39,756 nt of DNA from NCBI GenBank assembly GCA_012719135.1, contig JAAYAW010000026.1, positions 1 to 39,756 on the forward strand, read 5' to 3'. The position numbers were made by a program, and so were the translations under genes. Origin of the DNA: Chloroflexota bacterium. Its GTDB lineage: Bacteria > Chloroflexota > Anaerolineae > UBA1429. The stretch's first letter is position 1; every line of letters begins with the position of its first letter. The notes beneath the pieces are model-generated. The model had not been told where the DNA came from, ran no database searches, and worked only from the letters and a program-made list of their open reading frames with translations. Shown here one piece after another: positions 10,095-22,705 of this stretch.

Positions 10095-10121
10095 AGGAGG
10101 CGGGCTTTTGGCCCGCCTCCT
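10095..10121. terminator. Bidirectional terminator between the C11 peptidase and the LysM operon
   Basis: An 11-bp stem (10095-10105 with 10111-10121) around a TTTTG loop. A short T-run follows on the plus strand. It lies between two convergent stop codons (10070 and 10146). Confidence 0.75.
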
Positions 10122-10145: not shown

Positions 10146-10535
10146 CTACTTGGGCAGCGTCAGCTCGATGCCGGCCTTGATCACGTCCGGGTTGGCACCG
10201 ATGGCGGCCTTGTTGAGCTCGTAGATCTCCTTCCAGCGGGCGCCATCGCCCAGGATGTCCCGCGCGATCGTGCTCAGGGTGTCACCGGCCTTGACCGTGT
10301 ACTTGCCCGCCCCCGCCGCTTCCTTGGCCGCGGCAGACGCCTTTTCACGGGCCGCCGCGACGGCCTCATCCAGGCGACTGCGGGTCTCTTCTGCTCCGGC
10401 CTCGACCTTGGCCTTGAGGTCGTTCACCTTGCGCTCCGCGGCGGCCTTGCCCAATCTGGCCCGCTCGGAAGCGGCTTCCCGCTCTCTGGCGGCCTTCTCG
10501 GCCATCTCCTTGGCCTTGTCCTCTATGCTGGACAT
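10146..10535 (-). CDS. Cytoplasmic LysM protein with Ala/Glu-rich helix (Kbp/YgaU-like)
   Basis: 129 aa. The ATG at 10535 follows AGGAGG by 6 bases. Residues 1-77 are a highly charged Ala/Glu/Lys/Arg helix, probably a coiled coil. Residues about 78-129 are one LysM domain (YTVKAGDTLSTIARDILGD...WKEIYELNKAAI) ending in LTLPK. There is no signal peptide or membrane segment, so it is predicted cytoplasmic. This LysM variant, with WxEIYELNK, resembles that of E. coli Kbp/YgaU, a cytoplasmic potassium-binding protein; potassium sensing here is only a suggestion. It is the last gene of a four-gene leftward operon and is a paralog of the gene upstream. Confidence 0.8.
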   Translation of the reverse strand: MSSIEDKAKEMAEKAAREREAASERARLGKAAAERKVNDLKAKVEAGAEETRSRLDEAVAAAREKASAAAKEAAGAGKYTVKAGDTLSTIARDILGDGARWKEIYELNKAAIGANPDVIKAGIELTLPK

Positions 10536-10590
10536 ACCGTGCCTCCTATGCGCTATCCGCTGCACGGCACAGGTGCAGCTCGTCTGGCGG

Positions 10591-11154
10591 TCAGTCCGGG
10601 AGGGTCAGCACCATCCCGATATGGATGAGATTCGGGTTGCCACCGATGACAGCCTTATTCAGCTCATAGATCTCGGGCCACCGGGACGCGGCGCCGAGTT
10701 GGTCGCGCGCGATGACGCTCAGGGAATCCCCCGGCTTGACGGTATAGGTCCTGGGCGCCTTGGCCTCCTCAGCCGCCTCAGCGGCTTCCGCCGCCTTTTC
10801 CTCGGCCTCGGTACGTGCCGAAGCGACGGCCGCCTCGAACTTGGCCTTGCTATCCGCGGCCGCTGCCGCGATGCGAGCGTCCGCTTCCGCCTTCGCGGCG
10901 GCCCTCTCGGCCGCCTCCTTGGCCTTGGCCTTTTCCTCGTTGGCCCTGGCCTCTGCCGCCGCCCTGGCCTTGTCCTCCTCTGCCTTGCGTGCGGCCGCGG
11001 CCGCCTCCAGCCGGGACTTGGCCTCCGCTGCCGCCGCTTCCTGGCGGGCCTTGGCCTCGGCCGCCGCCGCCGCTTTCGCCTGCGCCTCGGCCTCTTCTCT
11101 CTTTTTCTTGCCTCGGCCCAAAAGCCCGCTGATCAGTCCTTCTCTCTTGGCCAC
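10591..11154 (-). CDS. Cytoplasmic LysM protein with long Ala-rich coiled coil
   Basis: 187 aa. The GTG at 11154 is the start because AGGAGG lies 6 bases upstream and no ATG is nearby. A short basic N-terminus (ISGLLGRGKKKREEAEAQ) leads into about 110 residues of Ala/Glu/Lys coiled coil, then one LysM domain (YTVKPGDSLSVIARDQLG...WPEIYELNKAVIG) ending LTLPD. No signal peptide is present. The LysM is closely similar to that of the downstream gene, pointing to tandem duplication with divergence of the helical part. The GLLGRG start echoes the GLLGSLLGGG stretch of the upstream DUF937-like protein. Confidence 0.8.
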   Translation of the reverse strand: MAKREGLISGLLGRGKKKREEAEAQAKAAAAAEAKARQEAAAAEAKSRLEAAAAARKAEEDKARAAAEARANEEKAKAKEAAERAAAKAEADARIAAAAADSKAKFEAAVASARTEAEEKAAEAAEAAEEAKAPRTYTVKPGDSLSVIARDQLGAASRWPEIYELNKAVIGGNPNLIHIGMVLTLPD

Positions 11155-11196
11155 GACGTGCCTCCTTGCACTCTACAATCGTTGATATGATATACG

Positions 11197-11889
11197 TTAC
11201 TCTCCGGCCAGCAGCCGGAGGGCCTCAGCGAGGCCACGTTCTGCGGTCGCCGGGTCGATCCCTGCCTGCGCGGCCAGCCGGGCCGAGGCCTGCGCTGGCA
11301 CAGGGGCGGCGGCCATCTCCCCGCGGCTGCCCAGAGTCTTGAGGACGTCCCCCAGATCAGGGGCCTCTGCCGTTTCCCGCGAGATCGCGATGCCCTCTCC
11401 CGGCGCCTGGCGCTGGACCATCCGCTTCTGCAGAGATTGCAGGAGCATCGAGACGGCAAAGGTGATGATGGTGCTGGCGATAGCTTCCGACACGCCGAGC
11501 TTTTGCGCGAGCGCGCTGGCGATGCCGCTGGTGAGCGGGCTCGCCGCCTGGGCCTGGCCGGCTCCTCCACCCAGCAATGAGCCCAGAAGCCCGCTGCTCT
11601 GCGCGGCTGGCGCCGGCTGTTGTGCGCTTGCCCCGGTGAGCATCCCCAGCAGATCGCCGAGGCCGCCACCCTGGGCGGGTGCCTGAGGCGTTGCGGCGCT
11701 TTGGCCGCCCAGCAGGCTCATCAGATCGGCGGCGCCCAGCCCGGCGCCCTGAGCCGGCTGAGCCTCCGCCGGGGCCCCTCCGGCGCCTGCGAGCAGACTG
11801 CCGAGCACCCCGCTCAGCGCACCCAGCCCGCGGGCCTCGTCTTCTTCGTTATCGTCTCCCGCGATCAGATCCTTCAATAGGTCATCCAT
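11197..11889 (-). CDS. DUF937-like Gly/Ala/Gln-rich protein
   Basis: 230 aa. The ATG at 11889 has AGAGGAG about 10 bases upstream. The N-terminal half is low complexity, with repeated LLG/GLL blocks (GVLGSLLAG, LMSLLGGQ, GLGDLLGMLTG, SGLLGSLLGGG). A hydrophobic amphipathic stretch follows (SGIASALAQKLGVSEAIASTII, then TFAVSMLLQSL). The pattern resembles the DUF937/YidB-like family, whose function is unknown. The C-terminal 60 residues are Ala-rich and helical. No signal peptide is present. It is the second gene of the LysM operon, with about 40 bases to each neighbour. The family call is tentative. Confidence 0.6.
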   Translation of the reverse strand: MDDLLKDLIAGDDNEEDEARGLGALSGVLGSLLAGAGGAPAEAQPAQGAGLGAADLMSLLGGQSAATPQAPAQGGGLGDLLGMLTGASAQQPAPAAQSSGLLGSLLGGGAGQAQAASPLTSGIASALAQKLGVSEAIASTIITFAVSMLLQSLQKRMVQRQAPGEGIAISRETAEAPDLGDVLKTLGSRGEMAAAPVPAQASARLAAQAGIDPATAERGLAEALRLLAGE

Positions 11890-11928
11890 ATAAATACGTC
11901 TCCTCTGCGGGCTTCAGGGCCCGCTGGC

Positions 11929-12104
11929 CTATACCTTGGCCGTGATGCTCTCGATCAACATGAGGACCAGCCCCGCAAAGGGCACCAGGCCGAGCAGTAT
12001 GGTGTCCGTGATGCCAGGGATGGTAAAGAGGATCGAGACGAGGGAGAGGACGGCGAGGGCGAGACCGATGTACCATGTGATTTGAGTCGGTCGTTCAGTT
12101 TCAC
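11929..12104 (-). CDS. Small two-helix membrane protein, apparent one-base frameshift
   Basis: A GTG at 12104 with GGAGGT 6 bases upstream starts the frame VKLNDRLK, but that frame then loses sense. The neighbouring frame carries a convincing two-helix membrane protein (ITWYIGLALAVLSLVSILF, then ILLGLVPFAGLVLMLIE) to the stop at 11929. Adding one A to the AAA run near 12084-12082 joins the two parts into a 58-residue protein. The alternative ATG at 12153 in the membrane frame lies inside the promoter -10 box, so it is probably not translated. Either a true mutation or a homopolymer sequencing error is possible. It is the first gene of the operon. Confidence 0.6.
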
Positions 12105-12149
12105 GACGATACCTCCATGTACCGGGTACGAACAGGATCGACACACAGG

Positions 12150-12178
12150 ACATTAGGCCCGCTTTGGTTTTCTGTCAA
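12150..12178 (-). promoter_or_regulatory. Promoter of the four-gene LysM/DUF937 operon
   Basis: On the minus strand: TTGACA (12178-12173), 17 bp, TAATGT (12155-12150). It lies 45 bases before the GTG at 12104 and is divergent from the TetR promoter about 65 bp away. Confidence 0.75.
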
Positions 12179-12240
12179 CAGTTGGCGTGGAAAGGGTCAA
12201 GCAGCCGATGGCCTGGCCGGGATCTGCCGCCCCGTGTCCC

Positions 12241-12269
12241 TTGACAGGTCCTATACCGATCGGTATACT
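12241..12269 (+). promoter_or_regulatory. TetR gene promoter
   Basis: TTGACA (12241-12246), 17-bp spacer, TATACT (12264-12269), 21 bases before the ATG. The match to the sigma-70 consensus is very good. Confidence 0.8.
12252..12267. promoter_or_regulatory. TetR-type operator, perfect 16-bp palindrome
   Basis: TATACCGATCGGTATA is perfectly self-complementary. It fills the spacer and overlaps the -10 box of the tetR-family gene, so protein bound there would block RNA polymerase. ACCGxxCGGT cores are typical of TetR-family operators. Autorepression is inferred. Confidence 0.8.
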
Positions 12270-12290
12270 GGAGGGCGGATCGGAGCAAAC

Positions 12291-12857
12291 ATGATGGCGA
12301 GAGAGCGGATACGGGCATGCGCCGGCAGACTCTTTGCGGCGCGCGGCTACGATGCGGTGGGCGTGCAGGAGATCGTCGATGCAGCCGGGATCACCAAGCC
12401 GACGCTATACCACTACTATGGCAGCAAACGAGGGCTCCTGGAGGCCCTGTTGGCTGGTGACTTTGAGGTGCTGCTCGATGATGTGGCGCAGGCCGCCTGC
12501 TACGAGCACGATCTGGTTGTGACGCTCCAGCGGGTGGTACGCGCCTGCTTTGCCCATGCCCTCGAGCACCCCGAGTTCTGCCGCCTGCAGCGGACCCTGT
12601 TCTATGCGCCGCCCGCAAGCGAGGCCTTCCAGGCCGTCAGGCCCTGGCATGCACGGCTGACGAGGAGAATCGAGGAGCTCTTTGCCCTCGCGGCGGCAGA
12701 CCACGGGAATATGCGGGGCCGCGAGCAGGCCTACGCCGCCACCTTCCTCGGGATGATCAACACCTACACCGGGCTCTGGCTGAGCGACGCGTTCGCCCTG
12801 GGGGATGACGTGATCTACCGGGCGGTGCACCAGTTCATGCACGGGATACTCTCCTGA
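12291..12857 (+). CDS. TetR-family transcriptional regulator
   Basis: 188 aa. The ATG at 12291 has GGAG 6 bases upstream. Residues 1-50 are a classic TetR DNA-binding domain: RERIRACAGRLFAARGYDAVGVQEIVDAAG followed by ITKPTLYHYYGSKRGLLEAL. The C-terminal part is helical and would hold the ligand pocket; its ligand cannot be told from sequence. The operator in its promoter points to autoregulation. It could also act on the divergent LysM operon or on the downstream GH13 gene (86-base gap), but no second copy of the operator is seen near either. Confidence 0.9.
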   Translation: MMARERIRACAGRLFAARGYDAVGVQEIVDAAGITKPTLYHYYGSKRGLLEALLAGDFEVLLDDVAQAACYEHDLVVTLQRVVRACFAHALEHPEFCRLQRTLFYAPPASEAFQAVRPWHARLTRRIEELFALAAADHGNMRGREQAYAATFLGMINTYTGLWLSDAFALGDDVIYRAVHQFMHGILS

Positions 12858-21578: not shown

Positions 21579-21628
21579 GATGGCAGGCTAACGGGCGCGC
21601 GTGTGGGATAAAGAGCGAGGAGGTCGGC

Positions 21629-22705
21629 ATGGGCACAGGTAGAGAGGCGTGCAGGCGGTGCCTTGTGGCATCTCTCGCCCTGGTGATCCTGCTCACCCTC
21701 GTCGCGCCTGTGAGCGCACAATCGGACCTCGCCACTCTGGGCGCGCAGATGGAGCGCGCCTGGAACAGCGCCAACTGGCCCGCCGCGCTGGCCCTCCTCG
21801 ATCACATGCGCACGCTGGTCCCCTCCGATGAGGGACTGATCGAGCGCGAGTTGCGCGGACGGCTGAACTATGGCTGGGACCTGATCTCCGCGGGCCTGTG
21901 TACTCAGGCGCGGACGCAGTTTGAGCGGGCTCTGGGCTTGCTGCCGGGCGATGCCGAGGCTCTGGCCGGGCTGGCGCTCACCCAGGTTCGCTGTCCGAAT
22001 GAGGCGCCCCCGGTGGTGCCCACGCCGGTGAGAGGCGACGCGACGCCTACGCGCGTGTTGCCGACGCCCGCCCCCGCCGGCCCATCACAGGGCGCTCGGC
22101 AGCACACCGTGCGCCGAGGAGATACGCTGTACAGCCTGGCGCGCCACTATGGCGTCACGGTGGAGCAGATCCAGCGAGCTAACGGCTTGCGGAGCGACGC
22201 CATCCAGGTGGGTGTGACGCTGCAGATTCCGGCGGAGCAGGGAGCCGATCAGGCGGGCCGGCACACGGTCGAGGCGGGCGATACGCTGGCGGCGCTGGCC
22301 CTGCGTTACGGTACTACCGTCGAGGCCATACGCCAGGCCAACGGGCTCACGGGCGATGCCATCCGCGCCGGCATGGTGCTGAGCATCCCCGCTGGGGATG
22401 TCCATATGGTGCGGGCCGGCGAGACGCTCTATAGCATCGCCCGGCAGTATGGGATCACGGTGGCCGACTTGATGGCTGCCAACGGGCTGAGCGGCAGCCG
22501 GATTCGCGTGGGGCAGCAGTTGCGCATCCCGGGGGCGGCCGGGAATTCTGGAGAATCGTCGGCTGCGCGGAGGCATACGGTGCAGGCCGGAGAGACGTTG
22601 TTCTCGATCGCCCGCGAGTACGGCACGACGGTCGCTGCGCTGCAGGCGGCCAACGGCCTGGCCGGAAGCGAGATCCATGCCGGCATGGAGTTGACGATTC
22701 GCTAG
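21629..22705 (+). CDS. Secreted protein with four LysM domains
   Basis: 358 aa. The ATG at 21629 follows GAGGAGGT. Residues 1-30 are a signal peptide (basic start, LVASLALVILLTLVAP core, VSA cleavage). Residues 32-122 form a TPR-like helical domain, followed by a Pro/Thr linker (PVVPTPVRGDATPTRVLPTP). Four LysM domains follow at about 159-201, 212-254, 259-301 and 316-357, each with GDTL or GETL and an ANGL turn. LysM binds peptidoglycan or other N-acetylglucosamine polymers, so this is a cell-wall or surface-layer binder. No catalytic domain is present. Prepilin peptidase follows 50 bases later on the same strand. Confidence 0.9.
   Translation: MGTGREACRRCLVASLALVILLTLVAPVSAQSDLATLGAQMERAWNSANWPAALALLDHMRTLVPSDEGLIERELRGRLNYGWDLISAGLCTQARTQFERALGLLPGDAEALAGLALTQVRCPNEAPPVVPTPVRGDATPTRVLPTPAPAGPSQGARQHTVRRGDTLYSLARHYGVTVEQIQRANGLRSDAIQVGVTLQIPAEQGADQAGRHTVEAGDTLAALALRYGTTVEAIRQANGLTGDAIRAGMVLSIPAGDVHMVRAGETLYSIARQYGITVADLMAANGLSGSRIRVGQQLRIPGAAGNSGESSAARRHTVQAGETLFSIAREYGTTVAALQAANGLAGSEIHAGMELTIR

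Follow-up and report, generated by a model that had tools for sequence, protein, structure and literature searches.

Recurrent linkage of genes for predicted cytoplasmic LysM proteins and DUF937/YidB-type proteins in Chloroflexota and in other bacteria

The assumption that a LysM domain means extracellular binding to the cell wall is called into question by LysM proteins that are predicted to stay in the cytoplasm. A 39,756 nt stretch of DNA from a Chloroflexota bacterium (the whole of which is called the window below) encodes two such proteins in one operon, raising the question of what they do there and with which partner. Inspection of the open reading frames of the window revealed one leftward cluster formed by a small membrane-protein gene (11929–12104; about 57 aa), a gene for a DUF937/YidB-like protein (11197–11889; 230 aa, assigned through its relatives and profiles), and the genes for two coil-LysM proteins, LysM1 (10591–11154; 187 aa) and LysM2 (10146–10535; 129 aa), all on the minus strand and separated by gaps of 39, 42 and 55 nt. 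A gene coding for a TetR-family regulator (12291–12857, plus strand) is divergent from the operon. The four leftward genes and the divergent TetR gene were all present as the original prediction had described them, except that LysM2, a shorter paralog devoid of the N-terminal segment, starts at the ATG at 10535 (129 aa) and not at the GTG upstream. The remaining neighbours identified with Pfam were a C11 peptidase, an amylase and an MFS transporter.

A probable promoter for the operon lies at 12150–12178 (minus strand), with a perfect -35 box (TTGACA, 12178–12173) separated by 17 nt from a weak -10 box (TAATGT, three matches of six). Since the -10 box is weak and a promoter scan did not report this site, its earlier description as a single strong promoter was overstated as regards strength. 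The anticipated terminator was found as a strong hairpin (GGAGGCGGGC / GCCCGCCTCC; 10096–10120, minus strand; -25.6 kcal/mol, z -4.8), although its T tract is short; it closes the cluster and is common to the convergent C11 peptidase gene. A perfect palindrome, TATACCGATCGGTATA (12252–12267), overlaps the -10 box of the TetR gene's own promoter, about 75 nt from the -35 box of the operon. This palindrome is likely to be the TetR operator, and TetR is likely to control its own gene. No TetR gene was found beside the relatives of the operon in genomes G001, G006 and G008, where the neighbours differ (loci L002, L003 and L004 were read). Given this, and the position of the palindrome on the TetR gene's own promoter, the proposal that TetR is a conserved part of the system was abandoned.

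The small membrane gene was indeed present in the operon, but not as a single clean reading frame. The ribosome site and the GTG at 12104 open one frame (MKLN...), while the membrane segment (PTQITWYIGLALAV..., also given as PTQITWYIGLALAVLSLVSILFTIP...) is encoded in the next. Relatives at loci L003, L004, L119, L246 and L314 read through with no frame break (MNLNAPKKVTWIVALVLAV in L314, MNLSEPKQITFWIAVIVAV in L119), so that the window copy appears to be one base out of register, whether by a real frameshift or by an assembly error. Sequence comparison placed two of these relatives at L003:794–1009 and L004:2101–2277, both on the minus strand. In G006 and G008 the small membrane gene lies immediately upstream of the DUF937-like gene, as in the window. 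At L314 it (929–1111) lies directly upstream of a coil-LysM gene (1288–1866) with no DUF937 gene in between, an adjacency suggesting that the small membrane protein may partner the LysM protein.

Pfam detected the LysM domain in both coil-LysM proteins (4.5e-8 and 6.6e-7), and the usual LysM residues (GD[ST]L.., NP..I..G) are conserved in them. The structure model of LysM1 (mean pLDDT 90) shows a rigid 129-residue helix rich in Ala, Glu and Lys, followed by a C-terminal strand-helix-helix-strand LysM fold; no BON domain was found by Pfam in LysM1 or LysM2. A hydropathy analysis detected no signal peptide or membrane segment in either protein, the maximum 19-residue hydropathy over the N-terminal 35 residues being -0.69 and -0.81. 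The claim that neither protein carries a signal peptide thus stood, and the absence of export signals predicts both to be cytoplasmic, in favour of a system that is located in the cytoplasm and built of LysM and DUF937-like proteins. An N-terminal amphipathic helix serving as a membrane anchor was considered and rejected: for most of the LysM proteins the hydrophobic moments did not exceed those of shuffled sequences, and the window protein fell below the shuffle mean, a negative result for the suggested tethering to the envelope through the LysM N-terminus. Elsewhere in the window, at 21581–22702 (plus strand), there is a gene whose product, a secreted protein, combines four LysM domains with a signal-like N-terminus; it is of the ordinary extracellular type, unlike the two proteins of the operon. 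A tandem resembling LysM1-LysM2, consisting of a long coil-LysM gene (1489–2046) and a short LysM gene (1075–1347), was seen at L324.

The DUF937-like protein could not be named directly, as no Pfam or NCBIfam model matched it, and the original designation held through its relatives and through profile comparison. Those relatives scored 19.8 and 17.7 bits against PF06078, below the Pfam cut-off of 25.4, and alignment of the group's profile by hhalign matched DUF937 (E 9e-7 over 113 columns; 91.5%) and YidB (E 7e-12 over 45 columns; 97.5%). These sequence comparisons show the protein to belong to the DUF937/YidB superfamily, as a divergent Chloroflexota branch. Its N-terminal half is of low complexity and rich in Gly and Leu; the structure model contains confident helical units at residues ∼118–161 and 199–229, while the rest of the chain, Gly/Leu-rich, is modelled with low confidence. 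A sequence search of the PDB gave no match, and a Foldseek search with the model returned nothing significant. We know of no function for DUF937/YidB proteins.

The association of the two genes was then considered within the Chloroflexota class. In the window's own family (f1), four of 15 genomes contain both the DUF937-like and the coil-LysM genes and the other 11 contain neither (Fisher, 7e-4). The two genes are adjacent in three of the four (the window, L002 and L004); in the fourth, G006, the two are on different contigs, the DUF937-like gene being cut off by the start of C438 and the LysM gene beginning at the end of C375, an arrangement that would fit a single interrupted operon. By genome, adjacent pairs were found in G000, G001 and G008 (f1), G084 (f2), and G341 and G179 (f4), and a canonical DUF937 gene lies beside a coil-LysM gene in G107 and G081 (f37). 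Across the class, co-occurrence was observed 23 times against 7.6 expected (p 1e-8, uncorrected for phylogeny). When wider flanks were read for 20 loci (up to ∼9 kb per side, contig permitting), no LysM gene appeared beyond the adjacent ones. Homologs were repeatedly adjacent in related genomes rather than scattered. The reverse search showed coil-LysM to be a class-wide family; among its best 30 loci, eight adjoin a DUF937-type gene (L305–L312), and most do not. Coil-LysM genes of further families in the class follow a gene for either a DUF4332 protein (>140 bits) or a degenerate, Dak2-like one that carries Gly/Leu repeats. Genes for these Dak2-like proteins (motif NGNHGDNM) were seen directly 5′ of coil-LysM genes at L319:2085–2894, L325:527–1381, L327:2249–3337, L328:2089–3375 and L333:2149–3240. 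DUF4332 helix-hairpin-helix genes occupy the same position at L320:1021–1428, L322:1963–2400, L323 and L330.

Beyond the Chloroflexota, LysM relatives were picked from 77 named genomes by their LysM pattern alone, regardless of DUF937. A DUF937 gene was present in 22 of these genomes and lay directly beside that LysM gene in four (Marinicaulis, Wenzhouxiangella, Spirosoma and a Gemmatimonadaceae genome; p 1.8e-8 when a single LysM gene per genome is assumed, 1.5e-4 if ten are allowed). Follow-up sampling covered the orders of three adjacency-positive genomes, with the seed genomes excluded. There, 5/58, 2/28 and 5/28 DUF937 loci had an adjacent BON-LysM-like gene (p 8e-11 for the last), against about 0.1 or fewer expected by chance, assuming one such gene per genome; in one targeted sampling, none of the 30 best DUF937 loci had a LysM neighbour. 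Most LysM partners of DUF937 outside the Chloroflexota belong to the Kbp type, with BON and LysM: Pfam found both domains in five of six tested partners, that of the Gemmatimonadaceae genome having LysM alone. In Raoultella a YidB gene lies directly behind Kbp; YidB was nonetheless rejected as the usual partner of Kbp, being adjacent in only one of 16 genomes that have it. At the gammaproteobacterial DUF937 loci L224, L230 and L232, a gene for an MltD-like transglycosylase with LysM was observed ∼2 kb away.

Counts inside a single order or family lack independence, and positives from the same order may share one ancestor; the linkage is therefore read as recurrence in distant groups and not as many separate events. 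On this sequence evidence, the pairing of a gene for a predicted cytoplasmic LysM protein with a DUF937-type gene recurs in five or more groups at the rank of phylum or class, namely several Chloroflexota families, Gemmatimonadota, Alphaproteobacteria, Gammaproteobacteria and Bacteroidota. The linkage is far above chance, yet it is a minority pattern, most DUF937 loci having no LysM neighbour. The component families are known, but the partnership was not found in the literature searched: no paper mentioned LysM together with DUF937, and YgaU appeared with YidB only in a genome announcement.

How might the two proteins work together? The reading favoured here, to which roughly even probability is given, is a cytoplasmic two-component assembly of Kbp/DUF937 type, made of an oligomerising DUF937 protein and a LysM reader. 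Self-assembly of the DUF937-like protein would involve its Gly/Leu-rich part together with the helical units, and the coil-LysM proteins would dock onto this assembly as reader or linker. The long helix could present LysM to a putative cytoplasmic ligand, either a wall precursor that contains GlcNAc or a second protein, while the small membrane protein might anchor the assembly to the inner membrane. Where the LysM reader is of the Kbp kind, a middle BON domain would make it ion-responsive; in the Chloroflexota version the middle would be a coil, the LysM–DUF937 partnership having been kept and the potassium site not. Beyond gene anatomy and linkage, this mechanism is inferred throughout. A broader form, held more tentatively, is that cytoplasmic LysM proteins of both types, Kbp and coil, make up with DUF937/YidB a widespread and so far undescribed system in which an exchangeable middle (BON or coil) sets the response.

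The main rival as regards ligand and output, judged by analogy, is that LysM binds wall precursors, either lipid II or UDP-sugars, on the inner face of the inner membrane, and that the DUF937-like partner gates wall synthesis according to its state of assembly. This has a precedent in Bacillus subtilis, where the cytosolic protein SpoVID uses a C-terminal LysM to bind lipid II and sequester it, as dictated by a partner's polymerisation state (PMC10659427). The retained LysM residues and the membrane-protein gene in the operon would suit it; however, neither sporulation genes nor genes of wall synthesis were recognised next to the operon or its homologs, and this reading is considered unlikely.

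Less probable still is that the operon serves potassium or osmotic sensing as the Chloroflexota counterpart of Kbp. In favour of this, the pair's relatives in other phyla include BON-LysM proteins of the Kbp type, and among cellular structures the LysM alignment matches Kbp itself best (7pvc, 2.7e-11). The comparison with Kbp in the original prediction has in fact become stronger than first claimed, since, where a LysM gene adjoins DUF937 in Proteobacteria or Bacteroidota, its product is usually of the BON-LysM kind. In Kbp, however, the K+ site lies in the BON domain (PMC9481166), which both window proteins lack; potassium sensing, as opposed to the family resemblance, cannot therefore be carried over to proteins in which a coil replaces BON. 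An ordinary loose neighbourhood, in which adjacency reflects partly chance and partly shared ancestry in a few clades, is likewise improbable. LysM is abundant (11–23 matches per genome in the window's family) and the linkage is a minority pattern, but a special cytoplasmic LysM type recurs in five distant groups, co-occurrence in f1 is perfect, and the wider flanks contain no LysM gene. That the operon is what remains of phage tail or injection machinery, with LysM acting in the cytoplasm during assembly, is scarcely credible and already disfavoured: in the PDB the LysM profile matches a phage tail tube initiator best (9g8s, 1.7e-17), but the identified neighbours of the operon are of the kinds listed above and no tail genes were among those read at homologous loci.

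Returning to the favoured assembly of DUF937 protein and LysM reader, the pairing suggests, as far as gene order and sequence can indicate, a two-part cytoplasmic system not described before. Kbp serves as the sensing part of potassium biosensors, and its cellular role is not settled; the recurrent pairing across phyla gives both the Kbp and the DUF937/YidB families a concrete, testable partner.

Compared with known systems, the LysM proteins of the operon differ from secreted wall-binding LysM proteins in having neither signal peptide nor membrane anchor. The DUF937-like protein shares helical units and Gly/Leu-rich repeats with DUF937 (PF06078) and YidB (PF20159; structure 1z67), although it scores below the Pfam cut-off for the former. 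The pairs of coil-LysM with DUF4332 or Dak2-like proteins in the same class have the LysM type and gene order (partner first) of the window, but their partner family is different. SpoVID resembles the window's proteins in being cytosolic, as these are predicted to be, in its C-terminal LysM and, under the favoured model, in working with an assembling partner; it is specific to sporulation and has no known likeness to them outside LysM. Kbp/YgaU of E. coli, in turn, has a BON domain where the window's proteins have a long Ala/Glu/Lys coil, but shares with them the lack of an export signal expected of a cytoplasmic protein, a short N-terminal segment and a C-terminal LysM, and its relatives in other bacteria adjoin DUF937 or YidB genes.
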